From NCBI GenBank assembly GCA_903821875.1, contig CAIJMU010000025.1, positions 1 through 35,914 of the forward strand: a DNA stretch of 35,914 bases, written 5' to 3'. Origin of the DNA: an uncultured Spirochaetota bacterium (GTDB lineage Bacteria; Spirochaetota; Spirochaetia; Treponematales; Rectinemataceae). Within the stretch, counting starts at the first letter, position 1. Each line of letters starts with the position of its first letter. This document shows, one piece after another, positions 13,784 to 33,004 of this stretch. The position numbers were made by a program, and so were the translations under genes. The notes beneath the pieces were generated by a model. The model worked only from the letters and a program-made list of their open reading frames with translations, ran no database searches and had not been told where the DNA came from.

Positions 13784-14932
13784 CTACTCGTCCAGGCTGT
13801 CGCCGGAAACCACGGGGGCGATGCTCGTACCGGAAGCTTCCACCACAACCGCATCCCTGGCGCTCCAGGAGAGCCAGACCTCGTCCTTCCACTTGATATC
13901 AGGCACACCCTCGGACCATTGGGCATGCTGTCTGAAAACAACGAGGTGGCCACCCCCGGGCGTCCGCACGTAATACTTCGACTGGAAGCCGGAGTAGATC
14001 GGTTCGTCGACCATACCCTTGACGACGTTTCCCAAGGGGCCTGCCTCGGCTGGAGGAGCAAGGGAAATCCGTATCTTCTCCGGGCGCACGGCGACGCTGA
14101 CCCAGGAGCCTTCGGGGGCCTCGTTCCCGGCCTCGACCTTGATGGCGCCGATCCTCTCGTCCTGCACCAGCGAAATTCCGTTGGAAAAACTGACAACCTT
14201 TCCAGAAAACAGGTTCGTATCCCCTATGAAGCGGGCAACGAACTCGGCCTTGGGATTCTCGTATATGTCCTGGGGCGACCCCACCTGGAGGATCTTGCCG
14301 CCATCCATGACCGCAATCCTGTCGGAAACTGACAGGGCTTCGGCCTGGTCGTGGGTTACATAGATGAAGGTGATGCCAACCTCGTCATGGATGGAGTCGA
14401 GTTCGACGAGCATATGCTGGCGAAGCTTCGCATCAAGGGCTGAAAGCGGCTCGTCCAGGAGGAGGACCGAGGGCTCATTGATGAGGGCCCGGGCGATCGC
14501 AACCCTTTGCTTCTGCCCTCCGGAAAGTTGCGAGGGCTTCTTGTCCGCATGCTTCTCGAGCTGGACAAGGTCGAGGTGCCGCTTGACCAGCTCGCGAACC
14601 TTCTTGCCCGGCGTCTTCCGTATCCTGAGTGGAAACGCGACATTCTCAAAGACCGTCAGATGTGGAAAGAGGGCATAGCTCTGGAACACCGTATTGCATC
14701 TGCGCTTGTCTGGAGGGAGCCCGGTCACGTCCCTCCCATCGATGGATACCAGGCCGGAATCAGGATCCTCGAAGCCCGCTATCAGGCGCAGCAGGGTAGT
14801 CTTTCCGCAACCGGAGGGGCCAAGCAGGCTGAAGAACTCACCCTTTTTTATTTCCAGGGAAACATCCTTCAGCGCCTTGAAGTCGCCAAAGGACTTGGAA
14901 AGACCCGAGATACTAACGTTCGATCCAAGCAT
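13784..14932 (-). CDS. potA: Spermidine/putrescine ABC transporter ATP-binding protein PotA
   Basis: PotA is the ATPase that drives polyamine import. The 382-residue product has Walker A GPSGCGKTT at 38-46, ABC signature LSGGQ at 136-140, Walker B LLLDEP at 157-162 and the switch region YVTHDQAEAL. A C-terminal TOBE-type regulatory domain starts near residue 240. The overall form is that of the PotA/MalK/UgpC group; the PotB, PotC and PotD neighbours settle the substrate class. A GGGAGGAG element lies about ten bases upstream of the ATG. It is the first gene of its operon. Confidence 0.95.
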   Translation of the reverse strand: MLGSNVSISGLSKSFGDFKALKDVSLEIKKGEFFSLLGPSGCGKTTLLRLIAGFEDPDSGLVSIDGRDVTGLPPDKRRCNTVFQSYALFPHLTVFENVAFPLRIRKTPGKKVRELVKRHLDLVQLEKHADKKPSQLSGGQKQRVAIARALINEPSVLLLDEPLSALDAKLRQHMLVELDSIHDEVGITFIYVTHDQAEALSVSDRIAVMDGGKILQVGSPQDIYENPKAEFVARFIGDTNLFSGKVVSFSNGISLVQDERIGAIKVEAGNEAPEGSWVSVAVRPEKIRISLAPPAEAGPLGNVVKGMVDEPIYSGFQSKYYVRTPGGGHLVVFRQHAQWSEGVPDIKWKDEVWLSWSARDAVVVEASGTSIAPVVSGDSLDE

Positions 14933-14966
14933 CCCGCTTATTCTCCTCCCTCGTGCAATGTGGGAA

Positions 14967-14996
14967 GGTATAGAGAGAACGCCGGCTTTTCGTCAA
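14967..14996 (-). promoter_or_regulatory. Promoter of the potABCD operon
   Basis: TTGACG (14996-14991) and TATACC (14972-14967) are separated by 18 bases on the minus strand, within the 79-base gap between the antiporter stop and potA. Transcription would start about 28 bases before the potA ATG. No operator-like palindrome was seen. Confidence 0.65.
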
Positions 14997-15011
14997 CAAG
15001 AAAATGTGACA

Positions 15012-17531
15012 TCAGGAAATCGGCAGGGCGCGACGAAGCTCCTCGGGATCCTCTGCCTGGGCCAGCAAAAAGCCCAGCCCACGGTCCCGGAACAGGCGGG
15101 AAAGTTCGCCGAGGGTCGCAAGGTGGCGGCCTGGGGATAGCCCCTCCGGTTCGCAGAGGATGACGAGGACCTTCGCGGGTTCGGCCAGGCTACGGATGCG
15201 CCAGCCAGGAGACCTGCTGCCAAAATAGACCAAGGCCTCTTCAATGCCGCCGATGTGTGCATGGAGGAGGAGGACCCCTGGCTCAAGCTCTATTGGCTCG
15301 TGCTGGGCTATCTCGGAGAAAAGCCCAGTCAGGCGGGCCTGTTCCCTGCGGTCCTTTGCGAAATCAGCTGACAGGAGTCGCTTGATCGCCTCCGGCAGCT
15401 GGGATTCCTGCAGGCGGAGCCTGACCCGGCCGTTGTCCAGGGCCTGATTGAGGAGTCCCTGCGGGGAACCCTCGCCACCGCCGCCCTCGGCGACGGCGGG
15501 AGGATAGAGGATCATGAGGGGGCTTCCAGGAAAGGATGCAGCGAACTCGCCCGGCAGGATCTCGAAGGAGGGATGCCAGATGGGCTGGCCCTGGCGGCCG
15601 CTCAGTATCGCGTAACCCGTCGTCCGTCCGGCGGCACCCCTGCTTCTGCTTTTCGCGACGCGAGCAGCCGATTTCCAGGAGTCGAGTTCTTCTATCTCGA
15701 TGCTGCCCCTCGGCCTCGCGATGCCGGCAAGGGTCCGGGCGGCGGGTCCACCGGGCTTTTGCACATAGACTGTCAGCGTCGCGCCTGTCGCCGCCAGGAT
15801 CGGGGTAAGTGAGCCTGCGATGCGGGATGCATCGAGACGACCCTCGATACCAGGGGGAAGCACCAGGGCGAGCCTGTCGATGCCATTGAACCCGGGGCCG
15901 GGACGAGCGACGACGAGCAGCGAATCGGTGCCGTCGAGGATCGCTTCGTGGATTCCCGAGGCAAAAAGCGAACTCGGATGCGGGGCATTGTTCCAACCCA
16001 GGATGATGGCCCGCGCCGGACCCTGGGCAGCGGCCTTGAGGATGCCTTCGGCTACGGAGGGGGCCATGGCAATCGCCGGCTCGATGAGGCCCTCCGCGTC
16101 CCGGGCCTTGACCAGGGCCTGGGCGATAAGGTATTCGGCGCGCTCGAGCTCCCGCTCACTTTCAGGACTCTCGCAGACAACGAGCGCCCTGATCCTTTCG
16201 AAAGAAGCCTGCGCGCGGACATGGATGCCGATCCACAGGAGGCCCTGCGCCGTCGCGGGATTTGAGAGTGCGACGAGGATTTCCGCGCTGCTGCCTTCAC
16301 GCCTGTCCCTGCGGGGCTTGGTTTCCGATCCCGTGGAAACTGCAGGAAGCCTTCGCCTGGTCTCGATCGATTCAGCTCCTCCGAGAAACTCGAGAATCCA
16401 GGAGGCGGCGAAAGCCGCGACAAGGAATACGGATTCCTGTGGTCCCAGAATTCCGAGCCCTGCCACGAGGAGGATATACAAAAGGGTCGATGCCTCTGCC
16501 CCCGGCGCAGCCGCCATCGCAAAAAAATGGAACCAGCGGCCGAGAGGGATGAGGGGAAGCACTGAAAGTGCTGCCGCCAACCTCGGACCGACAACAAAGC
16601 AGCAGGCAAGGAGGGCCGCTCCGATGGACGAAATAGATGAAGGCAGCGCAGCGTGGCTCGCCAGAGCGAGGGGAGCCAGAGCCACGGCGATGCCGACCGG
16701 AACCACTGCGAGCGGAAGGAAAATGCTCCTCGCAGCAAAGCCCAGACGTTCATCGAGAACTGAACCCTGCGGCTCGTAGCGGCCCAGTGCGAGACCTGCG
16801 GCAAGAGCTCCAAGCGGTGGAGGGAGGCCTACGAGCCCGGCCAGGGCGGCAGCAGCAAAGCCGCAGCCGGCGAGTACGGAAAAGCCCAGATTGGCCGAAT
16901 CCTCCGTCCGCCCGAACCAGAGCGAGGGCAGAAGGGAGCAGATCCAGAAACTGGCACCTGCAGCCGCCAGGACCATGATGACAGCCACGACCGAATAACC
17001 TGCGTGCCCTGGGACCCGGCACGCCAGCAGGACCATGAAGGCCGAGAACCTGAGGACCTCCCCGAGATCATTGGCCCCCAGCAGCGAAAAGCCCTGCCGC
17101 CCAGCCATCCGCTCGAAGCGCGGGCCGAGCTGCCTCGGAAAGGGCGAGGCGGCAGAAAAAGCCACTCCGAGCAGCAGGGAATCCACAAAACCAAGTCCCA
17201 ATGCCCTGGTTCCGATGATCCATCCCAGCACCAGGGCTGATGCAAAACCGGCCCCTGCGAAGAGCCAAGCGACAGGATTCGCGCGAAGCACCCGCGTCAT
17301 TTCCACTTCGCAGCCGACCAGGAAAAAGACATAGGCCAGTCCGACCGAAGCGAGGGTTCTGAGGAGATCGGGGAAGACCCCGGGCAGGGTCAGGCCTGCG
17401 ACCATACCGATACCCAGCATGAGTACTGTTGCCGGGGCCCGGAGCCGTCGCCCCAGGGTCTGTGAAACCATGGCAGCCGCGAGCAGCACGAGGAGGAGGG
17501 GGAAGATCTCCCCGGACAGAAGGAACCGCAT
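15012..17531 (-). CDS. CPA2/Kef-type antiporter fused to Usp-like and PTS EIIA-like domains
   Basis: The 839-residue product has about 12 hydrophobic segments in residues 1-395, typical of sodium- or potassium-proton exchangers, with an ND pair (Asn154-Asp155, in LGANDLGEV) where ion-binding acids occur in this family. A charged linker (about 400-425) leads to two tandem segments resembling universal stress protein domains (about 425-545 and 550-680; for example DSLLVVARPGPGFNGIDRLALVL). The C-terminus (about 690-839) resembles a PTS EIIA type 2 (PtsN) domain: PGVLLLHAHIGGIEEAL places His757 at the phosphorylation site, and HLATLGELSRLFRD follows. The domain order suggests transport controlled by nucleotide and by PTS phosphorylation. 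No Shine-Dalgarno is visible before the ATG. The ion is unknown. Confidence 0.8.
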   Translation of the reverse strand: MRFLLSGEIFPLLLVLLAAAMVSQTLGRRLRAPATVLMLGIGMVAGLTLPGVFPDLLRTLASVGLAYVFFLVGCEVEMTRVLRANPVAWLFAGAGFASALVLGWIIGTRALGLGFVDSLLLGVAFSAASPFPRQLGPRFERMAGRQGFSLLGANDLGEVLRFSAFMVLLACRVPGHAGYSVVAVIMVLAAAGASFWICSLLPSLWFGRTEDSANLGFSVLAGCGFAAAALAGLVGLPPPLGALAAGLALGRYEPQGSVLDERLGFAARSIFLPLAVVPVGIAVALAPLALASHAALPSSISSIGAALLACCFVVGPRLAAALSVLPLIPLGRWFHFFAMAAAPGAEASTLLYILLVAGLGILGPQESVFLVAAFAASWILEFLGGAESIETRRRLPAVSTGSETKPRRDRREGSSAEILVALSNPATAQGLLWIGIHVRAQASFERIRALVVCESPESERELERAEYLIAQALVKARDAEGLIEPAIAMAPSVAEGILKAAAQGPARAIILGWNNAPHPSSLFASGIHEAILDGTDSLLVVARPGPGFNGIDRLALVLPPGIEGRLDASRIAGSLTPILAATGATLTVYVQKPGGPAARTLAGIARPRGSIEIEELDSWKSAARVAKSRSRGAAGRTTGYAILSGRQGQPIWHPSFEILPGEFAASFPGSPLMILYPPAVAEGGGGEGSPQGLLNQALDNGRVRLRLQESQLPEAIKRLLSADFAKDRREQARLTGLFSEIAQHEPIELEPGVLLLHAHIGGIEEALVYFGSRSPGWRIRSLAEPAKVLVILCEPEGLSPGRHLATLGELSRLFRDRGLGFLLAQAEDPEELRRALPIS

Positions 17532-17580
17532 TGCTACGAGAGTCTAGGGCGTGGAGGGGCGCGACTGCAAGCACAAGATG

Positions 17581-17612
17581 GCGGCGCTCCACTGCGAAGG
17601 ATGGAGCGCCGC
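17581..17612. terminator. Perfect 11-bp hairpin between aminotransferase and antiporter genes
   Basis: GCGGCGCTCCA (17581-17591) pairs with TGGAGCGCCGC (17602-17612) around a ten-base loop. On the plus strand it is followed by ATTTTTG, like an intrinsic terminator, but no plus-strand gene leads into it. On the minus strand it follows the aminotransferase stop by about 20 bases and has only a weak U-tract. It probably ends the aminotransferase message, and may also stop antisense transcription. Confidence 0.55.
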
Positions 17613-17632
17613 ATTTTTGAGTCAAGAAGGGC

Positions 17633-19024
17633 TCATGCCCTCACTTTCACCCTGCCTGCTTTCTGGGTGACCCTGTTTTCAGCCTGGGTCTTGGCGAGCC
17701 CTTCGGCGATGTCCTCGAAGGCTGAGATGTGCTTGTTGATATCAGCCTCGGTGTGTTGAACCGAAATGGTCCACTGCTCGTCCCACCAGTAGGGCTGGCA
17801 CATTACACCGCGATTGACCATCCCGAACCAGTACTGGCGCCAGAGATCCTCGTCGATGCCAAGCCAGTCGCGATAGTTGCGGATTTCCCTGGGATAGAAC
17901 ATCAGGGCCCCGTTCGCCCCAGCGGTGATCACATAGCCTTCGAGCCCGTGCTTTGCGACGGCCTTTTTATAGCCCTTTTCAAGCTTGGCGCTGAGCCTGT
18001 CAACGAGTTCGTAGTTTTCACGGGTCAGAACCTGAGTGAAGTTCGCGAGCCCGGCGGCCATCGACAGGGGGTTCGTGTTGTAGGTCCCACCATGGAAGAC
18101 CCTGCGTTGTGCGATGAGGTCCATGATGGCGCGGCTGGCTCCGAAGGCAGCCAAAGGCAGTCCCCCACCGATGGACTTGGCAAGGCAGACAATGTCAGGC
18201 TTCACAGCGAAGCGTTCGGTCGCGCCGCCCATGCCGAGCTTTGCCCCCGTTTTCACCTCATCGAAAATGAGGAGGGCGCCCGCTCTGGTAGCGATCTCCC
18301 GTAGTCCCTGGAGGAAGCCTGGCTCAGGCATGCACAGGCCCACGTTCATCATGATCGGTTCCAGGATAATGGCAGCGATCTGTCCCGGGAACTGCTCGAA
18401 GCGGCTGCGCACTCCTTCAAGGTCGTTGAAGGCGGAAATCACGACGTCCTCGACTGCCGACCTGGGCACGCCAAGTCCTCCGGGAACCGACACGGGCCGT
18501 CCCGCCTCGCCAAAATCAGGAGCGTGAGGCTTGACGCTGACCAAGGCTGTATCATGAAGCCCGTGATAGCTGCCCTCGAACTTGAGGACCTTGTCCCGGC
18601 CTGTAGCTGCCCGGGCAAGGCGCAGCGCAGCCATGGTCACTTCAGTGCCGCTGTTGCCAAACCGGAGCATTTCGAAGCCGAATCTAGCGCAGATCTTCTC
18701 CGCAAGCTGCCACTCGAGTTCGTGGGGCATCCCGTACAGGGTCCCCCGGCTGAGCTGGGCAGATACAGCGCTCATGATCGCCGGGTGACCATGGCCTGCC
18801 ATAAGGGCTCCGAAACAGAGGTTGTGGTCGATGTAATCATTTCCATCGAGGTCGCGGAAATGTGAACCGTGGGCTTCCTTCACGAAGAGGGGCCAGGGAT
18901 CATAGGAACGGTAATTGCTTGCGACTCCCAAGGGCAGGTGGCGAAGGTTCTTCTTATGGGCTTCCGCAGACCGGGACGTCCGCTTCGTGTACGTATCTAT
19001 CTCTGTCGATAGTCTTTGATTCAT
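17633..19024 (-). CDS. Class III PLP aminotransferase, glutamate-1-semialdehyde aminomutase-like
   Basis: The 463-residue product (ATG 19024, GGAG five bases upstream) is a fold-type I PLP enzyme close to HemL. It has FGNSGTEVTMAALRLARAATG for phosphate binding, FDEVKTG (Asp255, binding the pyridine nitrogen), and LAKSIGGGLPLAAFG with the PLP lysine at Lys283. Near the N-terminus it has the HemL-like DLDGNDYIDHNLCFGALMAGHGHP. It is longer than HemL (about 430 residues), and no other haem gene lies nearby, so the substrate may be another amino compound. The frame can begin 18 bases earlier, but the ribosome binding site favours 19024. A promoter and a leader of about 320 bases lie upstream. 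Confidence 0.82.
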   Translation of the reverse strand: MNQRLSTEIDTYTKRTSRSAEAHKKNLRHLPLGVASNYRSYDPWPLFVKEAHGSHFRDLDGNDYIDHNLCFGALMAGHGHPAIMSAVSAQLSRGTLYGMPHELEWQLAEKICARFGFEMLRFGNSGTEVTMAALRLARAATGRDKVLKFEGSYHGLHDTALVSVKPHAPDFGEAGRPVSVPGGLGVPRSAVEDVVISAFNDLEGVRSRFEQFPGQIAAIILEPIMMNVGLCMPEPGFLQGLREIATRAGALLIFDEVKTGAKLGMGGATERFAVKPDIVCLAKSIGGGLPLAAFGASRAIMDLIAQRRVFHGGTYNTNPLSMAAGLANFTQVLTRENYELVDRLSAKLEKGYKKAVAKHGLEGYVITAGANGALMFYPREIRNYRDWLGIDEDLWRQYWFGMVNRGVMCQPYWWDEQWTISVQHTEADINKHISAFEDIAEGLAKTQAENRVTQKAGRVKVRA

Positions 19025-21253: not shown

Positions 21254-21744
21254 TCTCTACCTCCAGAGTATCTGGTAAAATTAGCACGCCTGGCCACAAA
21301 TGAATATGCAGCCTGACCTTCTGTCCTGGGCCCAAATACCATAATGAAACGTCCTATTTATATTCCATCGGCCAGGAACGTACCTACACTCCTTGCCAAA
21401 CGAGCCAAGACAAGTGCGCGTTATGCGCATTTGGAATCTTGTCTGGCCTTAGGTCATGGCTGGAAAAAGCATTGGTCCTTTGGAGCCGGGAGAATTGCGG
21501 CTGACCTGAGAAGCTGCAGGGTTCGTCAATTTCAAACAATGGCGGGAATTGTATGCTTTCTTTAAACCCTCATATTCATTGGAGACTGGGTCTGATGTCC
21601 GGAATCCCTCGAAGAAATGAGGGTTTCCACCCTGAATTTGGGCTGAGAACCTCCAATGCAAATATGAATAGGGTATGCAATAGTTTCTCAGGTTTTTTCC
21701 TTCGGGCAGTTGCCGAGGAAGACGACGAGGGAATAGGAGTTGTC
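21254..21744. other. Intergenic region between divergent ftcD and the Ig-repeat operon, with inverted repeats
   Basis: This 491-base stretch holds no convincing gene. For ftcD, a weak extended -10 (TGCTAATTT, 21286-21278 on the minus strand) is the only candidate. No convincing promoter was found for the plus-strand operon. Structure is rich: a nested hairpin at 21408-21444 (AGACAAG/CTTGTCT outside TGCGC/GCGCA); a ten-base inverted repeat AAACCCTCAT/ATGAGGGTTT (21564-21573 and 21617-21626); and ATTGGAG/CTCCAAT plus TATTCAT/ATGAATA arms around it, reaching about 21670. A further stem (TTCCT near 21697 with AGGAA near 21716) lies about 25 bases before the start codon. Confidence 0.55.
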
Positions 21745-24700
21745 ATGTTGCAATCACCGAATAAGAGGCATGTCCTTGGGGGAGTTCTGGCCATTTTCTT
21801 GAGTGCGGCGATGTCCGGTCAGGCATTGCTCCTTGACTCCGTCGATTTTGCGATGACAGGGGGGCTCCCACTAGGCGGCTACAATGAGGTCGCGAAAGCT
21901 ACCCAAGGTTGGCAGTCTGGCCTCAATTTTGTCTATAATCTGGATCGCAGCTTTGGCAGCTTCATCAGTGTGGAAAACCTTTTTTGGTACCCTGCCCAGA
22001 GCTATCTCTCCTTTGGCACTGGAATTGGCGTCCTGGGAGGTCTCACATTCAGGACTGTCGTCCTGGCTATTCCCAAGGCTGGCGAGCTGAAACTCGGCTT
22101 TAGTCTGGGTTATGGCTTCATGGCGCATGTCGTCACGGGAACCTGGACCGGTTCGACATCAACAAGCGGATTCTTTGACCAGATGGGCCTGGCCGAGGGC
22201 GAGATAACCTGGTCCTTCGACCGAAGCCCGATCAACCTCTATATCAAGCCGCGCTACCTGTTCGCGTCGGAGCAAAAGGGGTTCAGCGCCCAGGAGCTAT
22301 CGATCGGCCTTGGCCTCCGGTATATCCTGCGCAAGGATTCGATGACCAAGCTGTTCCGTGCAGTGGAATCGGTAAGCATCACATCGGTTTCCCCGACGCT
22401 CGTTGAAGGACAGTCCTTTGCCTTTGCCGCCGCAGTCGTGCCCATAGACGCGACGAATCCCGCCATCCGTTGGACCGTCGATGATCAGAAGATCGCAACC
22501 ATCGACGATTCAGGGAACCTTCACGCGCTGAAATTCGGGGATACAACGATCAGGGTGAGGAGCGTGGACGGCGAAAAAACAAATACCGTCGATGTATCAG
22601 TCAAGCTCCCCCTGCGCCAGATCGCCGACATGACAGTTCCCAGCCTGGCCACAGGAAACACTCTGGCGTCCATCACCAATCCACTGACCCTGCCCAAAAC
22701 CGCGCTGGACGGCACCCCGATAAGCTGGAAGTCTTCGGACGCAGAAATCATTGCCGACGACGGCACGGTCACCAGGCCTGCTTTTTCCGATGGGGACAAG
22801 AACCTCACGCTGAAGCTCACCACCTCCCGCGATGGACAGAGCGAAAGCAAGGAGATCAGCTTTACGGTGAAGGCCCTTCCCAAGGACGCGGCCGCAGCCC
22901 TCGATGAGGATGCAAAGGCCCTTTCGGTCGGCTACGCACAGGGCGACAGCGAAAGCTCGGTGACCGCCAACGTGCAGCTGCCCGTCAAGCTTGGAGCAGG
23001 TTCATCAGTCGAATGGGCCTCGAATTCCGAAATCATCGTTGCCGACGGCAGCGTCGCGCGACCACCCTTCAAGACCGGCGACAGCACGGTAGTCCTGACG
23101 GCGAAGGTCAAGAAAGGCGAAGCATTCGTAGATCGGCAGTTCACCCTCATAGTCAAAGCGGCGCCCATGACCCCCATGGAGTTAGTCGAACTCGATGCCA
23201 CCGGGGTTGCGATCACCTACTCAGACGGCGATACCGTTGATACAGTCACCCAGAATGTCAGCATGACGACTGCCGGTGACAATGGTTCGGTCATCATCTG
23301 GTCGTCAGATGCCCCAGGACTCGTCAATTCCTTCGGCCTCGTTACCCGCCCTGTTGGCAAGGATGGCCTGGCGAAGCTTACCGCCAGTGTCAAGAACGGC
23401 AAGGAAGCATCCAAGGATGTTGTCTTCGCGCTCACAGTTCTTGACAATTCAGTCAATGTAGACGCAGCAGCCATAGCAATAACCTTCGCGAAGGGCGATT
23501 CCGAGCAATCCGTCACAAAAAAACTGGGACTCCCCCTCAAGGGAAAGAACGGAACCGCGATATCCTGGACTTCTTCCGACGAAAAGCTCCTGCATGTGGC
23601 TGATGGTTCGGTCGTGCGGATCAACGAGGAAGACGCCCCAGTCACGCTGACAGCCCAGGTGACAAAAAACAAGCTCGTGGCATCCCTTGAGGTCCAGGTT
23701 TCCCTTGCGGCAGCCAAGGCCGAACTCGACGCCGCGGCCCTCGCCATCGGCTTCGCCACCGACGACAGCGCCGACTATGTGTCAGCCAACCTGAGTCTCC
23801 CCGCCACGGGCGAGCGAGGCTCGGCCGTCACCTGGACAAGCCTCACGCCGGCACGCATTGCCGGCGACGGAAGCGTCGTTCCTCTCCTCAACAAGGACGA
23901 GAAGGTTACGCTCCGGGCAAGCCTCTCGAACGGCCCGAGCTCCGCGATACGCGACTTTGTGGTAACTGTAAAGGACGGGGCAGTAGCAGCCGACCTGGCA
24001 GCACTCGCCCTGGGCTTCGGCAGCGGGGACAGCGACACGTCAGTGACAAAAAACATCAGCCTGCCGCTCAAGGGAGCCAATGGGACCCTGATGAGCTGGA
24101 CGAGCTCGAACACGGCCCTCCTTCCGACCCCGACTGCCGCTACAGCCGCTGACAAGGCCAAGGATGCGGTGATAGTACGCAACAACGAGAATGATGAGGG
24201 AGTTGTCCTTTCGGTCAAAGTCACGAAGGGCAATCTTCGCGAACAGTCGAGGGACTTCACCCTCGTACTCGCAGCTGCCAAGGCCGAACTCGACGCCGCG
24301 GCCCTCGCCATCGGCTTCACGACCGACGACAGCGCCGACTATGTGTCAGCCAACCTGAGCCTCCCAGCCACTGGAGAGCGAGGTTCGACCGTCACCTGGA
24401 CCAGCCTCACGCCGGCGCGCGTCGGTAGCGACGGAAGCATTGTTCCTCCCCTCAACAAGGACGAGAAGGTTACGCTCCGGGCTGCCCTTTCCAGCGGCCC
24501 GAGTTCAGCAACGAGGGACTTCGCGGTAACTGTGAAAGACGGGGCTATCGCCGCAGACCTCGCAGCCATCGCCCTCGGATTCGGCAGCGGAGATACTGAA
24601 ATGGCGGTAACACAGAAGATCGTCCTGCCCCTCAAGGGAGCCAATGGAACCACGATCACCTGGACGAGCTCCAATACAGACCTGTTCGGGAACGACGGAA

Positions 24701-25824
24701 CCATCGTGAGGACCAACGAAGCAGATGAACCCGTAACCCTGGCAGTCAAGATTTCCAAGACAGGACTCAGGGACCAGGGCAAGGAATTCCAGCTCGTGCT
24801 CGCCGCGGCTAAAGCCGAGCTTGATTCCGCAGAAACGGAAATTGGCTACGCAAGCGACGACAGCGCAACCTTTGTTACCCAGAATCTCGTGCTACCTGGC
24901 ACGGGAATACGCGGATCGACGATCAACTGGTCCTCGCTCTCAGCCAAGGCGCTCAGCGATTCTGGAGTCCTCACTCCGCCTCTTGGCCAGGACGAGAAGG
25001 TGACGCTCCGTGCCACCCTGGTTAATGGCCCAAGCCGCGCGACACGCGATTTTACGGTGGTCGCCAAGGATTACTCGGTCTTTGCCGACCTGGCAAACCT
25101 TGCCTTGACCTTCTCCCCCAGCGATTCTGAAAACCATGTCACCGCAAAGCTGGGTCTTCCCGCCGCTGGCGCGAACAAGACTAAAATCACCTGGAGCGCT
25201 GACCAGCCCGACCTGGTCGCATCCAATGGCGACGTGAAACGCCCCGAGGGCAGGGATGTTAAAGTCACCCTCAAGGCTGTGATCAGCAAGGCAGACCGAA
25301 GCACCGAAAAGACCTTCACCGCGAATGTCATAGATGTGACGATGTTCAGGATAACGACAAGTATAGCAAAACAGATCGCCGACAAGAAGCTCCAGAACGT
25401 AAGCGTCATGGAGACACCCCAGGGTATTTCCATAACGGCTGGCGGATTGGCCTTCGGCGCAGATTCGGGTGACATCAACAAGGACGTCGCAGTCAAGCTG
25501 GATCTCCTGGGCGTCATACTCCAGAACCTCGACAAGAACGGCGATCTCCGTAATGCCAAGATCGTGATAGAGGGGCATTCGGCAGTGGGAAGCTCCGGAA
25601 AAACGGACAATTCCGATGCCCCGAAATCCGACATGACCGTGTCCAAACTGCGAGCCGAGGGAGTAATGAAGTATTTCATCAGCCGCAACTATGTTTCAGC
25701 AGCGGTGATTGCCTTTGTCGGCTACGGCAGCACGAGGCCGATCGCAGAAGCCAAGGACGCAAAGAACCGCCGTGTCGAGATCATCATCGTAAAGGACAAC
25801 GCTGTTGAGGAAGGTTCGAAATGA
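21745..25824 (+). CDS. Outer-membrane protein: beta-barrel, BIG2, ten aBig-type repeats, OmpA-like C-terminus
   Basis: The 1359-residue product starts at ATG 21745 (AGGAG five bases upstream) with a signal peptide (about 1-27). Residues 28-196 alternate aromatic and polar residues and end in LGLRYIL, as in a small outer-membrane barrel. A BIG2 Ig-like domain follows (207-290, with WTVDDQKIATIDDSG). Then come ten repeats of about 90 residues of the aBig_2 type, each with a GDS, an NLSLP strand, GSTITW and a VTLTA strand. Residues 1200-1352 are OmpA-like, with VGYGSTRP and NRRVEIII, likely for peptidoglycan contact. It probably anchors in the outer membrane and links it to the wall. A frame back to 21553 exists but lacks a signal peptide. 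The stop overlaps the next gene. Confidence 0.82.
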   Translation: MLQSPNKRHVLGGVLAIFLSAAMSGQALLLDSVDFAMTGGLPLGGYNEVAKATQGWQSGLNFVYNLDRSFGSFISVENLFWYPAQSYLSFGTGIGVLGGLTFRTVVLAIPKAGELKLGFSLGYGFMAHVVTGTWTGSTSTSGFFDQMGLAEGEITWSFDRSPINLYIKPRYLFASEQKGFSAQELSIGLGLRYILRKDSMTKLFRAVESVSITSVSPTLVEGQSFAFAAAVVPIDATNPAIRWTVDDQKIATIDDSGNLHALKFGDTTIRVRSVDGEKTNTVDVSVKLPLRQIADMTVPSLATGNTLASITNPLTLPKTALDGTPISWKSSDAEIIADDGTVTRPAFSDGDKNLTLKLTTSRDGQSESKEISFTVKALPKDAAAALDEDAKALSVGYAQGDSESSVTANVQLPVKLGAGSSVEWASNSEIIVADGSVARPPFKTGDSTVVLTAKVKKGEAFVDRQFTLIVKAAPMTPMELVELDATGVAITYSDGDTVDTVTQNVSMTTAGDNGSVIIWSSDAPGLVNSFGLVTRPVGKDGLAKLTASVKNGKEASKDVVFALTVLDNSVNVDAAAIAITFAKGDSEQSVTKKLGLPLKGKNGTAISWTSSDEKLLHVADGSVVRINEEDAPVTLTAQVTKNKLVASLEVQVSLAAAKAELDAAALAIGFATDDSADYVSANLSLPATGERGSAVTWTSLTPARIAGDGSVVPLLNKDEKVTLRASLSNGPSSAIRDFVVTVKDGAVAADLAALALGFGSGDSDTSVTKNISLPLKGANGTLMSWTSSNTALLPTPTAATAADKAKDAVIVRNNENDEGVVLSVKVTKGNLREQSRDFTLVLAAAKAELDAAALAIGFTTDDSADYVSANLSLPATGERGSTVTWTSLTPARVGSDGSIVPPLNKDEKVTLRAALSSGPSSATRDFAVTVKDGAIAADLAAIALGFGSGDTEMAVTQKIVLPLKGANGTTITWTSSNTDLFGNDGTIVRTNEADEPVTLAVKISKTGLRDQGKEFQLVLAAAKAELDSAETEIGYASDDSATFVTQNLVLPGTGIRGSTINWSSLSAKALSDSGVLTPPLGQDEKVTLRATLVNGPSRATRDFTVVAKDYSVFADLANLALTFSPSDSENHVTAKLGLPAAGANKTKITWSADQPDLVASNGDVKRPEGRDVKVTLKAVISKADRSTEKTFTANVIDVTMFRITTSIAKQIADKKLQNVSVMETPQGISITAGGLAFGADSGDINKDVAVKLDLLGVILQNLDKNGDLRNAKIVIEGHSAVGSSGKTDNSDAPKSDMTVSKLRAEGVMKYFISRNYVSAAVIAFVGYGSTRPIAEAKDAKNRRVEIIIVKDNAVEEGSK
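23713..25338 (+). repeat. Three tandem two-domain repeat units inside the OmpA/aBig gene
   Basis: Units begin at 23713, 24277 and 24808 with a phrase encoding AKAELD; the periods are 564 and 531 bases. Each unit codes for two aBig-type domains. The first two units share long near-identical DNA (for example CTATGTGTCAGCCAACCTGAG in both), so the duplication is recent. The 33-base difference is an insertion encoding a Pro/Thr/Ala-rich loop (TPTAATAADKAK) in the first unit. The third unit is more diverged. Confidence 0.8.
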
Positions 25825-28800
25825 GGAACAAAGGAAGAACGATGACGCGGCAATCGCTCGCGCTCGGCACCCTCGCCTTCCTGGCGGTTGGCTGCAGTGA
25901 CATGATCTATTCGCTCCGGCCACTGACGCTGGACACGAACAAGGCGACGGCGGCGGGGGAGCAGATCGAGTCGAACATTGCCTGGGCGAAAATGAATAAC
26001 AGGAACAATGTCTACGAAGATTTCCTGATGCCAGAGCTTTTGTCGGGATCCACGATCACCTGGACCTCGCCCGACGGTTCGGTCTCGACCAACGGGCCCG
26101 AGGCCCTGGTCGAAAGACCGACGAACGCAAACAAGTATGTAACCCTGACCGCCACGATCAGTTATGGGATTGCAACCGTCACCAAAACAATCAAAGTCGT
26201 AGTTAGGAAGATTCCTGCTGCTCCAGGAACCGATCCCGTGGTCGACCAGGGGATTGTCGACGAAGCCAAGGCATCCCTCGCCGCCGGGGGAAGCGCCTTC
26301 GGCTTCGCTCCTGGACAGGATTTTTTCTCGGCCACCAGTTCGATTGCCTTTCCGAGTACCGGCCCCGACGGCACGTCCATAGCCTGGGAAACAAGCGACC
26401 CTTCGGTCATCGGTCCTGATGGAACGCTGGTTCGCCCCCCTGCAGGGAGCGGCAGCAAGACGGTCATAGTTACCTCTAAGATCAGGCGCGGCAACGTGAT
26501 CGTTACTGAAACCTATACGATAATAGTACCCGAAGCCCCAGCCGTTCCCGCCGAAGCCGTCGCAGCTGACACAGCGAGTCTCTCGCCGGTCTTTGAAGGC
26601 AGCGACACCCTGAGCCATGTGACTGCTGATCTCGACCTTCCTGCCTTTGGGGCTTCCGGCTCGGTAATTAAATGGACTTCAAGCAATCCGACAGTACTCG
26701 GCTCCGACGGGCAGGTTACCAGGCCTACGGATGCCGCCGCTACAGTCATCCTCAGCGCAGAAATTACAAAGGACGGAGTCACGGAGACCAAGTCCTTTAC
26801 GGTGCTGGTCGCAGCCCTCCCTGCTGACCCCGTACTCGTACTCCGCAGAGATAAGACCAACCTCAATCCACTGTGGAAGGCAGGCGATTCGCCCGGGTCG
26901 GTGACTGGCCCCATGGAGCTTCCGACCTCAGGGCCAGGCGGCAGCACCATCACCTGGGTCGCAACACCTACTGGCGTCATCGACCCACTCACCGGTAACG
27001 TCATCAGGAGTTCGACCGATACACCCGTAACCCTCACAGCGACTATTAGCTATGGGAAAGCGCCCAACACCAAGACTGATACCAAGACCTTCGACGTTTC
27101 GGTCCTGAAAATCCCGACCGACCCAGCGGTAGCTGCAAAGGAAGACGCAGCAAGCATCGCGATCGGCTATCCCCAGGGGGATTCGCGCTTCAGCATCACC
27201 GATGACATCAAGCTCCCGACCATCGGCGACGATGGCTCGATTATCACATGGACTTCGTCCGCACCCGGCCTGATAGGAATCGGCGGAACGGTCACCAGGC
27301 CGAGCTACACTGCTGGCGACAAGACGGTCACGCTTACTGCCGTGGTCCAGAAGGGGAGCGAGACTGTAATCAGGACCTTCACCGTCATCGTGAGTGCGCT
27401 ACCAAAATCTGCAGCCGATGTGGTCGCGGCAGACAAGGCCAGCCTCGAAATCGGCTTTGTTCCTGGCGACACAGGAGGTACGGGAGGCAAGGTCACCGGA
27501 GCACTGAGCCTGCCGACCACTGGTCCTGCGGGAAGTACCATCACGTGGGTACAGACTAGCCCCACCCCCGCGACAACTCCGATCATCGACACCGATCCAG
27601 TAGGTGGACTCGGAGGCATCACCAAGCCGACAACGGCGACGACGGTTACCCTGACGGCGACGATCAGCTCCGGAACGGGGGCCGACCTAAAGACCGAGAC
27701 CAAGACTTTTACCTTTGCTGTTGAACCAGCGCCGACGGCTTCGGCCGATATCGTCGCTCAGGACGCGGCAGTCCTCGAACCGGTCTTTGGCACTGGGGAA
27801 ACCAGTACATCGGTGACAAAAAACATCAGCCTGCCGACGACCGGTGTCAACAACTCAACGATCACCTGGGCGGCCAGCCCCGCCGGTGTCATTGCGACAC
27901 CCTCGGGTACGGTCACAAGGCCGAGCCTTGCCAGCGGCGATGCCATAGTCGTCCTGACCGCCACTATCCTAAGCGGAACTGCGCCTAACGTCGTAAGTAC
28001 TACCAAGAACTTTACAGTCAAGGTAGAAGCCATCGATCCCTCGACGCCCGCAGAAAAGGCGCTCGCCGACAAGGCCGCTACAGTACTCGGCTTCGATAGT
28101 GGGGATGGAACCATCCCAACAGGTGGTACCTACCCCGTCGTCACCGGCCCCCTCACCCTTCCCGCCATCGGGCCCTATGGCTCGACCATCACCTGGGTGC
28201 AGACTACGCCAGCTACACCGGTCATTGTGTACACCGATCCAGGACTGCCGACGACCGGCTTTGTCAAACGGCCAGATGCCGACACGACAGTAGCCCTCAC
28301 GGCGACCATTACATCCGGTACGGGCGCTGACAAAAAGACCGAGACCAAGACGATCACTGTCACCGTAACTGCACCGAACCCGGTCTATACTCCCGCCCAG
28401 AAAATAGCCGAGGATGCCGTGATGGCAGCTCCGACCTTTGCAAGTAGCGATGGCACGAACGCTGTCACGAACAACTTCACGCTGCCGAGTGTGGGTCCCT
28501 ATGGCACGAGCATCAGCTGGGCAGTAAGCAAGACCGCGAGCAGCGACACGAAGGTGCTGGACTTGCCGACCAGCAATCCAACCGCGCCGGCACCCTGGGA
28601 CATCACAGTGACCAGGCCAGTAATTGGACAGGCTGATGTCTATGTCATCGTGACGCCGACCTATAGCAATGGCGGCACAACGAAGACCGGAGCGCCGATC
28701 TACCTCAAGGTCAAAGCCCTGGGATCGACGGGAACGGTGGCTCTGACCATCAATTTTACAGCGCCCAGTGCGCCAACCTTCAGCATTACACCGACTGCGG

Positions 28801-29030
28801 CAATCAAGCTGAACAAGTATGCAGCAGCGCCTGAGTCCATAGCTGTCGACGCTGCGAGCGGCTTTACGAGTTACCAATGGGTCGTCAATGGTGCGGTTGT
28901 TTCGACGACCGCCGCAGCAACGATCTCGAGCGTAGGGCTCCCCACAGGACCCAACAAGGCTGCCCTGTTCGCCATGAAAGATGGCGTTCTCTGGGAAGCA
29001 GATTTCACCTTCACGGTGGTGGAGGAATGA
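25821..29030 (+). CDS. Predicted lipoprotein with nine aBig-type Ig-like repeats
   Basis: The 1069-residue product has a lipoprotein signal (LGTLAFLAVGC, lipidated Cys25). Nine Ig-like units of about 95-115 residues follow, each with a strand ending in LPTTGP, then STITW, a TRP turn and a TLTATI strand, and closing with a Pro-ended linker such as VSALPKS. The last 100 residues are a different module (INFTAPSAPTFSI, SYQWVVNGAVVS, DGVLWEADFTFTV) that recurs in the next gene. Units 6 and 8 are closest to each other, again suggesting two-domain duplication. The start overlaps the previous stop (ATGA), with AGGAAGG upstream; ATG 25842 is an alternative. Likely a surface-exposed filamentous lipoprotein; ligand unknown. 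Confidence 0.8.
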   Translation: MRNKGRTMTRQSLALGTLAFLAVGCSDMIYSLRPLTLDTNKATAAGEQIESNIAWAKMNNRNNVYEDFLMPELLSGSTITWTSPDGSVSTNGPEALVERPTNANKYVTLTATISYGIATVTKTIKVVVRKIPAAPGTDPVVDQGIVDEAKASLAAGGSAFGFAPGQDFFSATSSIAFPSTGPDGTSIAWETSDPSVIGPDGTLVRPPAGSGSKTVIVTSKIRRGNVIVTETYTIIVPEAPAVPAEAVAADTASLSPVFEGSDTLSHVTADLDLPAFGASGSVIKWTSSNPTVLGSDGQVTRPTDAAATVILSAEITKDGVTETKSFTVLVAALPADPVLVLRRDKTNLNPLWKAGDSPGSVTGPMELPTSGPGGSTITWVATPTGVIDPLTGNVIRSSTDTPVTLTATISYGKAPNTKTDTKTFDVSVLKIPTDPAVAAKEDAASIAIGYPQGDSRFSITDDIKLPTIGDDGSIITWTSSAPGLIGIGGTVTRPSYTAGDKTVTLTAVVQKGSETVIRTFTVIVSALPKSAADVVAADKASLEIGFVPGDTGGTGGKVTGALSLPTTGPAGSTITWVQTSPTPATTPIIDTDPVGGLGGITKPTTATTVTLTATISSGTGADLKTETKTFTFAVEPAPTASADIVAQDAAVLEPVFGTGETSTSVTKNISLPTTGVNNSTITWAASPAGVIATPSGTVTRPSLASGDAIVVLTATILSGTAPNVVSTTKNFTVKVEAIDPSTPAEKALADKAATVLGFDSGDGTIPTGGTYPVVTGPLTLPAIGPYGSTITWVQTTPATPVIVYTDPGLPTTGFVKRPDADTTVALTATITSGTGADKKTETKTITVTVTAPNPVYTPAQKIAEDAVMAAPTFASSDGTNAVTNNFTLPSVGPYGTSISWAVSKTASSDTKVLDLPTSNPTAPAPWDITVTRPVIGQADVYVIVTPTYSNGGTTKTGAPIYLKVKALGSTGTVALTINFTAPSAPTFSITPTAAIKLNKYAAAPESIAVDAASGFTSYQWVVNGAVVSTTAAATISSVGLPTGPNKAALFAMKDGVLWEADFTFTVVEE

Positions 29031-32000
29031 GGAACATGAAACAGCGAAACAACCCTGGCATCACCGCGATCATCCTTGCAGCCTTTGCGCTTGGGGGATT
29101 TCTAGCGTCCTGTGCCGGCCCCTTTGGAGGCAGCAGTGCCTTGGGGGATACGACCCGGATCGACAACCAGGCGACCCTGCCGGGCATGGGAGCTATCAGG
29201 CTCATCCTCCCCGCAACGGGCGCTTCGCGTGGCACCATCATTCCAGCCATCCTCGCCAGCGCCCATCACTACAAGATTACCCTGACCCCAAGCACGGGTC
29301 CGGCCGAGGACTTTGAAAACGTGACGAGTAGCCCCTGGACCAACGCCAACGTTACGCCAGGGGATTACAGCCTGATCGTCGAAGCCTACAACTCCGCTTC
29401 GACAAAGAGCGGCAGCTCTGATTCGATTTCAATCACCGTAACCAGCGGTGTGACGACGACGACGAGCATCGCGATAGCAGCCACCGGCACCCAATCCATG
29501 ACGGGGACCGGGACCCTGGGCACGACCATTTCCTGGCCTGTCACTGCGGTCGATTCGGTGACCGTCACCCTCTACAAGCAATCCGAGTTCCTCCAAGCCG
29601 GAGCCACTGCGGTTCCCCTGGGAACGCTTACTCCCGATTACACGACCGGCAAGCTCCCCATCTCCACGAGCCTTCCGAGCGGGAACTACGTCATGGTGGT
29701 CCAGCTTTCGAAGGGCGGAGTGCTCTACCCGCCCCTCTACGAGGCTGTGCAGATCTATGATGGATCCACGAGCGATAGCACGGGTACGGGCACGGGCTCG
29801 ACCACCACAACGGGCCTCAGCGTCACGGCGACCGAACTCGGAACGGCGCCGACTGCGCCGACGGGGCTGTTTGCCACAAAGGCTGCCGACGGGAAGGTGA
29901 CACTCTACTGGACAGACGCTTCGAACACCGAAACCGGATTCAAGGTCTACAAGGATGGAGTGCTCCAGACCCCGAGCCTCTCGGCTCTGGCAACTTCCTG
30001 GACTGATACAAGTACGACAGCCGCAAGCACGGGATACACAGTGGCTTCGTACAACGGGCTCGGGGAAACGATCTCCACGGCACTCGCCCTCACGGCTGTA
30101 ACCGGAATCACGGTACCGACTTCCGTCACCGTGGCGGGCGACGCCACGCGCATTCCCGTAACCTTCGCACCGACTACTGCCACCTTCCAGGACATCACCT
30201 GGACTTCGAGCGATCCGACGATTGCGACAGTCGATGCCTCGGGCAATGTCACGCCACTCAAGCCAGGTTCGGTCACTCTCACGGCGACCCCGCGGGGCGG
30301 TGGCACGGCGAAGACCATCCCGGTCACCGTTCCGACCTCGCCGACCTATGTCGGACTCAAGTTCGAGCTGCCCGCTAGTTCCACTTCCCTCAAGGACAAT
30401 CTCGCCGGTACCACTCCCCTCATCAACAAAGGGACAAGCCCCACCGATGTCATCACCTTCATGCCGCCCGAGGGCGTGGATTCCTACACCTGGTCCATCG
30501 ACGGCGGTACCGACACTTCCGCAAACCCGGGGACGCTGAGTCTTGATTCTGGAACCTTGACCGGGGGAACCGTTTCGACAAGTCCCGCGGGTACTTCCCA
30601 CACTGTCACGATCACCGTATGGAAGGATGGAACCAAGTATACGAAGACCGAAACCTTCATAGTACAGAATGATTCAAGTCCGATCACCACGGCCCAGACA
30701 GCCACCACGATCGCAAGCATCCTCAATGCAGACGATAGCTCGTCCGGCACGACACCCAAGACCATCACGGGCGACCTGAACCTTCCGAGCACCGGTCCGG
30801 GTGGTACCACGATAACCTGGGCCATGAACCCCGTGACCTACACCGATCCCAGCCAGGGAACGATCCAGCTCGTGGACGCCCAGGGCCACGTGACCAGGCC
30901 GAGCACTACAGCACAAACAGTCACCCTCACCGCGACCTTTTCAGGCGAGCCGATATCCAATGGGGTACCGACCACGACCACCCAGACCTACCAGGTATCG
31001 GTAAAACCAATTAGTACGGATACCAGCACGACCTGCGTCGAGACCGATCTCGCCACCATCATTCCCATCAGGCTGAGCACCGGTGATGCCCTGCCGACTT
31101 CGAGTCCGACAGTCTCCGGCCCGCTCGATCTGCCGAGCACCGGACCCTCAGGCACGGACATCACCTGGACGGCAAGCCCGGCCGGGATATTGGCTCCCGA
31201 CGGCACCCTCACGCGACCGGCGGTCGATACCACGGTCACCCTCACCGCGAGCGTGAGCAAGGGAACGAATCCCGTCATCACCGAGACCGTAACGACGACA
31301 GTCACGGTGCTCGCCAGGCCGACAACGACGATCGCCCAGGTAACCGAGGACGCCAAGGTCCTCGAACCCGGCTATCCCGATGGCACGGGCCCGCTTGTTC
31401 TCGACAGGAATATCGAGCTTCCGACCACCGGTCCGAACGGTTCACCCATCACCTGGACCGTGCTCAAGGCGGACGGAACCCCAGCTTCCTATCCCTCAAC
31501 CTCTCCGATCGATCCCTCGACCGGCAAGGTAACACTCCCAACGACGGGCACCTCGGTGATTCTTGTCGCGACCATAGGCGACGGCACTCCGCAGGTCGTA
31601 AAAACCTTCGATGTCACGGTCAAGGCCAAGGATACGACTACGCCAGCGACCAGCGACTCTCTTGCCCTCGAAATCGGCTTCCAGCCGGGTGACAATCCAG
31701 GCACCGTCACCGGCAATCTGACCCTCCCGACTGCCGGACCCAATGGCTCCACCATCACCTGGGCGGCCAGCCCCACGGTCGCAGCCGGCGGGCCGATCAA
31801 CCCGAGTACGGGTACGGTGACAAGACCGACAACAACGGCGCCGACCGATACGACGGTAACCCTTACCGCCACCATCACGCCGCCGACGGGAACACCGGTA
31901 ACCAAGACCTATGTCGTCACGGTACCCAGCAAGCCCCAGGTCGACGTGACTACCGCAACCCTCACCACCACTCAAATCACGCAATTGGTCGATTTCCAGC

Positions 32001-33004
32001 CCGGTGAGGGAAGCGGGACTCCACCTAGCATCAAGACGCTTTTTGATCTGCCGACGCTTGGCCCCGATGGCACGACGATCACCTGGACCTTCCCGAATCC
32101 CACGGCCTACAGCCCGACATCGACGACCTCGGTGCTGACCATTCCGTCAGCTCCCGGCCTTACCCTTGGAAGCGGAGATCCGATTCCAGTTATCGTCACC
32201 AGGCCGACGGTGGATACAACCGTGACACTGACGGCTACTGTCATCAAGAACGGCGTACCCGTGGTTATCAGCTATCCGGTGCTGATACCTGCCAAACCAG
32301 CCACCGATACAGCCTGCGTGACCGAGGATGCCACGCCAAGCACTATTTTAAAGGAAATTGTACTTTCCCCGGGCGATACGACAAGCACGACGACAACAGG
32401 TGGCGTGACGACCACAACTACCACGGTTACAGGCAACTTTGTCCTGCCCAGCACGGGAGCCGATGGCTCGACCATAGCCTGGACACCGACCAACACAGAA
32501 AATCCCGATCAAACAAGCATCACAGTCTGCGGCTTTCCACCAAGCCCGGGAAGCTATAGCTCCGGTCTACCCATCATCGTCACCCGGCCTGCCGCGGACA
32601 CAGTTGTGACCTTCACGGGCACTGTCAGCAAGGGAACATCGCCAGTCGTAACCCAGCCGGTCATCATCAAGGTGACGGTGAAGGGAACGGCAGCGACCAG
32701 TTCAAATGGATCGCTAACTGCGACAGTGTCCTTCGCGAACCCGAGCCAGCCGACCTTTAGCCTGGATGGGAATAACTCAATCATCTATAAGAGTTCGGCT
32801 ACGCCGACCTCGCTCACAGTCACCGCGACCTCAACGTTTGCGTCCTATACCTGGAAAGTCGATGGAGTGACACAAACAGTTACGACCAAGACCATCACGG
32901 TAAATGCCTCTGATTACGCGATTGGAAAGCATAGAATCTGGCTCTCAATACTCTCGGGCACCTATGTATATGATGCCTATGTGACCTTCGAAGTCAGGTA
33001 CTAA
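29027..33004 (+). CDS. Predicted lipoprotein with Fn3, BIG2 and six aBig-type repeats
   Basis: The 1325-residue product has lipobox FLASC (Cys29), then a Thr/Ser-rich N-terminal domain related to that of the next gene. It continues with a fibronectin III-like domain (APTAPTGLFATKAADGKVTL onward) and a BIG2 domain (WTSSDPTIATVDASGNVTPL). A module with YTWSIDGG comes next, followed by six aBig-type repeats and a terminal copy of the same module (YTWKVDGV, ending FEVRY). Threonine is extremely common, including a run of Thr codons near 32395-32430. The ATG overlaps the previous stop; ATG 29036 is an alternative with similar support. A longer frame from 28877 lies inside the preceding gene and is rejected. 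Likely surface lipoprotein of unknown binding. Confidence 0.8.
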   Translation: MRNMKQRNNPGITAIILAAFALGGFLASCAGPFGGSSALGDTTRIDNQATLPGMGAIRLILPATGASRGTIIPAILASAHHYKITLTPSTGPAEDFENVTSSPWTNANVTPGDYSLIVEAYNSASTKSGSSDSISITVTSGVTTTTSIAIAATGTQSMTGTGTLGTTISWPVTAVDSVTVTLYKQSEFLQAGATAVPLGTLTPDYTTGKLPISTSLPSGNYVMVVQLSKGGVLYPPLYEAVQIYDGSTSDSTGTGTGSTTTTGLSVTATELGTAPTAPTGLFATKAADGKVTLYWTDASNTETGFKVYKDGVLQTPSLSALATSWTDTSTTAASTGYTVASYNGLGETISTALALTAVTGITVPTSVTVAGDATRIPVTFAPTTATFQDITWTSSDPTIATVDASGNVTPLKPGSVTLTATPRGGGTAKTIPVTVPTSPTYVGLKFELPASSTSLKDNLAGTTPLINKGTSPTDVITFMPPEGVDSYTWSIDGGTDTSANPGTLSLDSGTLTGGTVSTSPAGTSHTVTITVWKDGTKYTKTETFIVQNDSSPITTAQTATTIASILNADDSSSGTTPKTITGDLNLPSTGPGGTTITWAMNPVTYTDPSQGTIQLVDAQGHVTRPSTTAQTVTLTATFSGEPISNGVPTTTTQTYQVSVKPISTDTSTTCVETDLATIIPIRLSTGDALPTSSPTVSGPLDLPSTGPSGTDITWTASPAGILAPDGTLTRPAVDTTVTLTASVSKGTNPVITETVTTTVTVLARPTTTIAQVTEDAKVLEPGYPDGTGPLVLDRNIELPTTGPNGSPITWTVLKADGTPASYPSTSPIDPSTGKVTLPTTGTSVILVATIGDGTPQVVKTFDVTVKAKDTTTPATSDSLALEIGFQPGDNPGTVTGNLTLPTAGPNGSTITWAASPTVAAGGPINPSTGTVTRPTTTAPTDTTVTLTATITPPTGTPVTKTYVVTVPSKPQVDVTTATLTTTQITQLVDFQPGEGSGTPPSIKTLFDLPTLGPDGTTITWTFPNPTAYSPTSTTSVLTIPSAPGLTLGSGDPIPVIVTRPTVDTTVTLTATVIKNGVPVVISYPVLIPAKPATDTACVTEDATPSTILKEIVLSPGDTTSTTTTGGVTTTTTTVTGNFVLPSTGADGSTIAWTPTNTENPDQTSITVCGFPPSPGSYSSGLPIIVTRPAADTVVTFTGTVSKGTSPVVTQPVIIKVTVKGTAATSSNGSLTATVSFANPSQPTFSLDGNNSIIYKSSATPTSLTVTATSTFASYTWKVDGVTQTVTTKTITVNASDYAIGKHRIWLSILSGTYVYDAYVTFEVRY

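Follow-up and report, generated by a model that had tools for sequence, protein, structure and literature searches.

In Escherichia coli, unphosphorylated PtsN binds to and inhibits the K+/H+ antiporter YcgO (PMC11808508; review, PMC13104625). In that system, PtsN is a separate protein and YcgO is a CPA1 antiporter with RCK and CorC domains (PMC11808508). NapA and KefC, CPA2 exchangers in whose chains no Usp or EIIA domain was seen in our structure and profile matches, have D-D and Q-D, respectively, at the ion site. SLC4 transporters (band 3, AE2 and AE3) have another transporter fold and function and use an EIIA-like fold as their cytoplasmic domain, which is carried at the N terminus. This SLC4 domain is not known to carry the phosphorylated His.

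The gene described here lies in a 35,914-nucleotide stretch of DNA from an uncultured Spirochaetota bacterium (the whole stretch is hereafter called the window) and encodes a protein that joins an exchanger, a Usp-like pair and an EIIA-Ntr-like domain in one chain (Table 1). As in the PtsN-YcgO system, an EIIA-Ntr protein would control a cation/proton antiporter by its phosphorylation state. However, the EIIA domain is fused in this family, the exchanger is CPA2-like and accompanied by Usp domains, and the ion site is altered in the lineage of the window protein. No published account of a fused EIIA-antiporter was found in the literature searched, which was mostly outside subscription journals and was judged by titles and the openings of abstracts.

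Table 1. Features of the fusion gene and its product (positions in the window)
Feature	Position	Strand	Basis or remark
Whole ORF, 839 aa	15012..17531	-	CPA2-type exchanger fold, Usp-like pair and EIIA-Ntr-like domain
Membrane domain, residues 1-398, NapA/KefC-like fold	16338..17531	-	Pfam and AF2 model
Asn154-Asp155	17067..17072	-	Three residues upstream of the aligned ion site
Codon of Glu158	17058..17060	-	In the column of the ion-site Asp that the family conserves (TIITDT)
Codon of Arg317	16581..16583	-	Site of a Lys invariant in 65 canonical long forms
First Usp-like domain, residues ~414-545	15897..16292	-	AF2 secondary structure; Usp profile matches
Second Usp-like domain, residues ~546-682	15486..15896	-	AF2 model, with strands and helices in alternation
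EIIA-Ntr-like domain, residues ~690-839	15015..15464	-	Family profile, EIIA-only model and Foldseek
Codon of His757, predicted phospho-acceptor	15261..15263	-	Matches the His in PtsN GVAIPH
Codon of His803, second active-site His	15123..15125	-	Matches the His in PtsN HLEIL

Domain architecture of the fusion protein

All 839 codons of the ORF are free of stops, and the G+C contents at the three codon positions are 0.70/0.52/0.71. A whole-protein AlphaFold (AF2) model built from an 86-row alignment has a mean pLDDT of 84.7; this alignment includes intact relatives, which partly lend the model its fold. In the model, a helical membrane domain extends to approximately residue 398 and is followed by two domains in which strands alternate with helices; the pLDDT of the C-terminal domain is at least 90 for the most part. 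The preliminary description had proposed that an exchanger is followed by a Usp-like pair and an EIIA-like domain; the profiles and AlphaFold models confirm this order, and family profiles of the C-terminal half matched both EIIA (PtsN) and Usp (3loq) structures. The window protein is a genuine, well-supported fusion of known parts, and the fusion is widespread.

Pfam Usp gave no match in the window protein at E 0.1 and exceeded its cut-off in the relatives L040 (2e-10) and L055 (3.7e-12), and a profile of the Usp region (alignment A5, 46 of 138 regions) matched the solved Usp structures 3loq (1.5e-5), 4wny and 1mjh. The second domain did not yield a separate profile match. ATP-binding Usp proteins carry the nucleotide motif GxxGx9G[ST]. 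The window protein has GWNNAPHPSSLFASG where relatives such as L101 have GWKG...FGS, and its sole match to the pattern is located elsewhere, in the second Usp half. On this motif, an ATP-binding Usp was rejected for the window protein, and the description of the pair as nucleotide-binding has found no support. The pattern is matched by 30 of 142 Usp regions, several of them, in relatives, as GWxG...FG[ST]; therefore, the ancestor may have bound nucleotide.

The EIIA-Ntr-like domain and its histidines

In the window protein alone, PTS_EIIA_2 is matched at residues 701-836 with an E value of 0.0012, which is below the Pfam cut-off. A profile of 85 EIIA domains (alignment A4, from 97 domains) matched the PtsN structures 4gqx (E 5.7e-16), 2a0j (1.6e-13) and 1a6j (3.1e-10). 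A model of the EIIA domain alone has a pLDDT of 96.1, and its first Foldseek match is PtsN 3urr (E 3.0e-8, TM 0.75); the cytoplasmic domains of SLC4 proteins (band 3, AE2/AE3 and NDCBE) are also matched, at E values of 2.7e-5 and weaker. Thus, both fold and profile identify an EIIA-Ntr-like domain.

Like PtsN, this domain contains both active-site histidines. Among 101 C-terminal domains, a set that includes three duplicate loci, position 757 is His in 100 and position 803 is His in all 101, and these two are the only invariant columns of the 85-row EIIA alignment. Unlike PtsN, the domain is fused to a transporter and has Leu in place of Pro before the first His. The presence of Leu756 before His757 was described correctly in the preliminary account, which presented it as a departure from the usual Pro; it is not an oddity of the window protein, because the preceding residue is Leu in 68 of the 101 rows (Ile in 14, Val in 10, Pro in 8 and Ser in 1). 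The eight rows with Pro are Gemmatimonadetes or Gemmatimonadales records (L091, L097-L100, L105, L114 and L118), and L105 is the one row in which Asn replaces the phospho-acceptor His. A metal site formed by His757, His759 and His803 was also considered and is unlikely, position 759 being His in 56, Arg in 19, Leu in 8 and Tyr in 3 of 86 rows.

The membrane domain and its ion site

Na_H_Exchanger is matched at residues 19-374 of the window protein with an E value of 9.7e-14, over the Pfam cut-off. The structures closest to the membrane part are KefC and NapA: when this part of the model was compared alone, VIA-align gave Z 32.6 and an rmsd of 3.9 over 374 residues for NapA 5bz2, and Z 26.5 for KefC. 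The family profile of the exchanger matched the same two proteins (NapA, E 7.7e-38; KefC, E 2.4e-17). The protein also keeps a basic residue in TM10, Arg317 occupying the Lys column.

The conserved TM5 ion-binding Asp of CPA2 proteins has been replaced. In the family profile alignment, the T-D of GGTIITDT is aligned with D-D in NapA and with Q-D in KefC, and the residue of the window protein in the Asp column is Glu158, as judged by alignment rather than by structure-level residue mapping, so that T-D of the family corresponds to G-E here. The ion-site column was read from alignment A2, which comprises 91 long forms and the window protein minus six rows of the f3 family (L056, L058 and L063-L066) whose membrane part could not be aligned; L077, L095 and L122 (the same proteins as L008, L012 and L016) and all ORFs of L089, L117 and L143 had been dropped beforehand. 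The column contains Asp in 65 of the 86 rows, Glu in 3, Asn in 3, Arg in 3 and other residues in the remainder, and Glu is also found in L040 and L042. In the canonical long forms, Asp occupies this site in 62 of 65. The distance from the FS of TM4 to the ion-site column is 34 residues, ungapped, in the window protein, the 10 other members of its subclade and L007, a relative with T-D, which places Gly157-Glu158 at the ion site and Asn154-Asp155 three residues too early. The residues Asn154-Asp155, which had been taken for the ND ion pair of the exchanger, are present but are not homologous to the CPA ion site, and spacing and alignment rule them out as an ion pair.

Distribution of the family

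Of the genomes sampled, 31 of 296 from the phylum (E 1e-10) and 45 of 390 from the order (E 1e-6) contain a family match, in some cases lacking the EIIA end. Among the best 80 of 432 loci in the GTDB genome scan, long forms occur in Planctomycetota, Omnitrophota, Hydrogenedentota, Gemmatimonadetes, Lentisphaerae, Verrucomicrobia, Desulfobacteraceae, Fibrobacter and other records, and forms of approximately 690 aa without EIIA occur in Bacillaceae and Bacteroidota. The long form is intact in Alkalispirochaeta alkalica (L096), a culturable relative. No family match was found in G319, the one other genome of the genus that was searched. In L089 (3607-5916) and L117 (3473-5803), a second, EIIA-less exchanger with a D-D ion site is located directly upstream of the long form; each locus possibly encodes a pair of exchangers.

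Inverted conservation in the clade of the window protein

In the canonical long forms, the membrane part is the most conserved part of the protein. In a multiple alignment of 62 canonical rows (1881 pairs), identity was 51% in the membrane part versus 25% in the EIIA domain, with a median ratio of 2.07. In the subclade of the window protein (11 rows, 51 pairs), the corresponding values were 36% and 54%, with a ratio of 0.69 (pairs with EIIA identity >70% were left out here and in the pairwise comparison below). Pairwise alignments, for which 31 of the 62 canonical rows were used, gave TM/EIIA ratios of 1.88 (1.18-2.91; 462 pairs) for the canonical set versus 0.70 (0.53-0.90; 51 pairs) for the subclade, and the two ranges do not overlap. 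Among pairs matched at an EIIA identity of 35-55%, the 133 canonical ones have a membrane identity of 67.5% (46-86), and the 31 from the subclade have one of 33.4% (20-45). Across the whole clade, the EIIA and Usp domains are also better conserved than the membrane part. In the lineage of the window protein, constraint is inverted, the membrane part being less conserved than the EIIA domain.

Thirty membrane positions are invariant in the 65 canonical rows used for the ion site and invariant positions; the window protein keeps 17 of these and its subclade relatives 19-27, and 27 of 69 near-invariant positions are kept by the window protein. In a Usp-EIIA tree of 51 rows built by a quick method, the order-level clade that contains the window protein comprises 30 rows (support 99), and the ion-site Asp is kept in 4 of its 29 scoreable rows; the members with T-D are L041, L044, L048 and L051. 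At least 5 changes of this Asp are needed on the whole tree, two of which concern single rows outside the clade. The terminal branch of the window protein is long (1.32 changes per column).

In the f3 family, the aligned letters of the membrane part are unreliable, and the Pfam exchanger domain was undetected in all eight relatives, with the C-terminal region retained. EIIA Pfam matches were obtained in seven of the eight, mostly below the cut-off. One f3 protein, L063, has no Pfam match at 0.1, yet its His pair is kept by alignment.

Phosphotransferase proteins in the genomes

The presence of HPr and Enzyme I genes in the genome, which had been proposed as a check, could be verified. The genome of the window encodes Enzyme I (TIGR01417, 579.6 bits), one HPr with an adjoining HPr kinase, three HTH-EIIA proteins and one CNNM-CBS-EIIA protein. 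PF02378, the only EIIC family searched, gave no match. The phosphotransferase system of this genome looks like a regulatory PTS. Both kinds of evidence on which the preliminary description had staked its proposal, EIIA and Usp profile matches and PTS proteins in the genome, were found.

The CNNM-CBS protein (L004, region C52:28173-28568, 502 aa) has a C-terminal EIIA-Ntr-like domain with canonical GIAIPH and VHLKLL; it is the second case in this genome of an EIIA fused to a transporter-like protein. Two similar HTH_17-EIIA proteins, L001 (C24) and L003 (C145), are encoded near contig ends, and no HL motif was found in either.

Enzyme I was detected in 51 of 54 genomes with a long form versus 17 of 25 genomes sampled through a short form (Fisher p 0.0033, uncorrected for relatedness), and this association is confounded by phylogeny. 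These 79 genomes were chosen from 110, and 'short' refers to the sampled locus, so that a long form may be present elsewhere in the genome. One of the three long-form genomes without Enzyme I is of 1.3 Mb, and a completeness figure is given for none of the three. HPr was detected in 53 of the 54 long-form genomes.

Proposed function

By analogy, the best reading of the fused family is that the control exerted by PtsN on a K+/H+ antiporter operates here in cis. For the family in general, phosphate from PEP would reach the EIIA histidine via Enzyme I and HPr, and the phosphorylation state of the EIIA domain would be passed through the Usp pair and gate the exchanger in cis; phosphotransfer to the Leu-preceded histidine that corresponds to His757 is predicted for the family. 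In the lineage of the window protein, the ion-binding Asp has been replaced, the membrane part is weakly constrained and the EIIA His pair is fixed. The protein would therefore most likely work as a regulator or sensor that is anchored in the membrane and responds to the PTS, the selected function more probably residing in the Usp-EIIA half, held at the membrane. We put the probability of this reading, in which the family has a PTS-gated exchanger in cis and the window protein performs little or no ordinary antiport, at roughly one half; phosphorylation, gating and loss of transport are the parts of this best explanation that we infer. A more specific scenario is slightly less likely than not: in this spirochaete order, a transporter may have become a PTS receptor, in which the exchanger lost antiport, the EIIA-Ntr domain remained under strong selection, and a membrane-embedded phospho-acceptor reports the state of PEP or of the membrane to partners, with intact members elsewhere providing cis PtsN control of potassium/proton exchange.

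Several observations count against a loss of transport and would fit a working cation/proton antiporter with an altered ion site (Glu158 and Arg317) that is regulated in its activity through phosphorylation of His757. The predicted NapA/KefC-like fold is kept, Glu could substitute for Asp, Arg317 retains the positive charge of the Lys site, and four members of the same clade have T-D. Furthermore, PF00999 matches no other gene of this genome, an unexpected situation if the exchanger were dead and no other antiporter family took its place, and the faster evolution of the membrane part in the clade could reflect a new substrate rather than decay. However, the poor retention of invariant and near-invariant membrane positions, the repeated loss of Asp within the clade and the inverted constraint make this explanation rather unlikely. 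The notion of an ordinary antiporter with an ND ion site fails on Glu158, on the same Asp losses and on a membrane constraint much weaker than that of the EIIA domain. A plain decay of the gene towards a pseudogene would agree with the long terminal branch and with the lack of a match in G319, but is very improbable given the intact reading frame, its codon-position G+C pattern and the higher conservation of the EIIA and Usp domains across the clade.

Another explanation concerns the family as a whole, namely that the EIIA-like domain has lost, or never had, its phosphorylation and serves a transporter as a module for binding or dimerisation, as in SLC4. The replacement of Pro before the His in 93 of the 101 rows and the structural matches to the SLC4 cytoplasmic domains point in this direction. 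We nevertheless regard it as improbable, because both active-site histidines are nearly invariant over many phyla in a domain with a mean identity of 25% in the canonical set, and because nearly all of the long-form genomes encode Enzyme I and HPr.

For the reading that we prefer, a PTS-gated family in which the window protein has become a regulator or sensor, the surprising part appears to be the erosion of the exchanger while the PTS histidines are kept. In E. coli, PtsN is known to control potassium and proton traffic by interacting with a separate protein. With a natural fusion that occurs in many phyla, such control can be tested within a single polypeptide and is predicted to exist far beyond the proteobacteria, and a clade with an eroding exchanger and fixed PTS histidines raises the question of the role of an EIIA domain left without an exchanger to regulate.

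Genomic neighbourhood

Upstream of the ORF are aminotransferase and formiminotransferase-cyclodeaminase genes, and potABCD lies downstream. In 20 flanking regions from relatives, of which some are cut by contig ends, none of these genes was present; the neighbours therefore say little about function, and an operon with potABCD has no support. A promoter scan of 14800-17750 gave no promoter-like site. The loci of the relatives share a murB and cysS neighbourhood.

At 21553-33004 on the plus strand of the window, three giant ORFs (1423, 1069 and 1375 aa) are arranged in a row, the first of which contains ten aBig_2 repeats and an OmpA domain. In the loci of nine relatives, mutually similar large ORFs also lie close to the antiporter gene and are encoded on the opposite strand, and the one scanned, in L160, contains Ig-like and OmpA domains.
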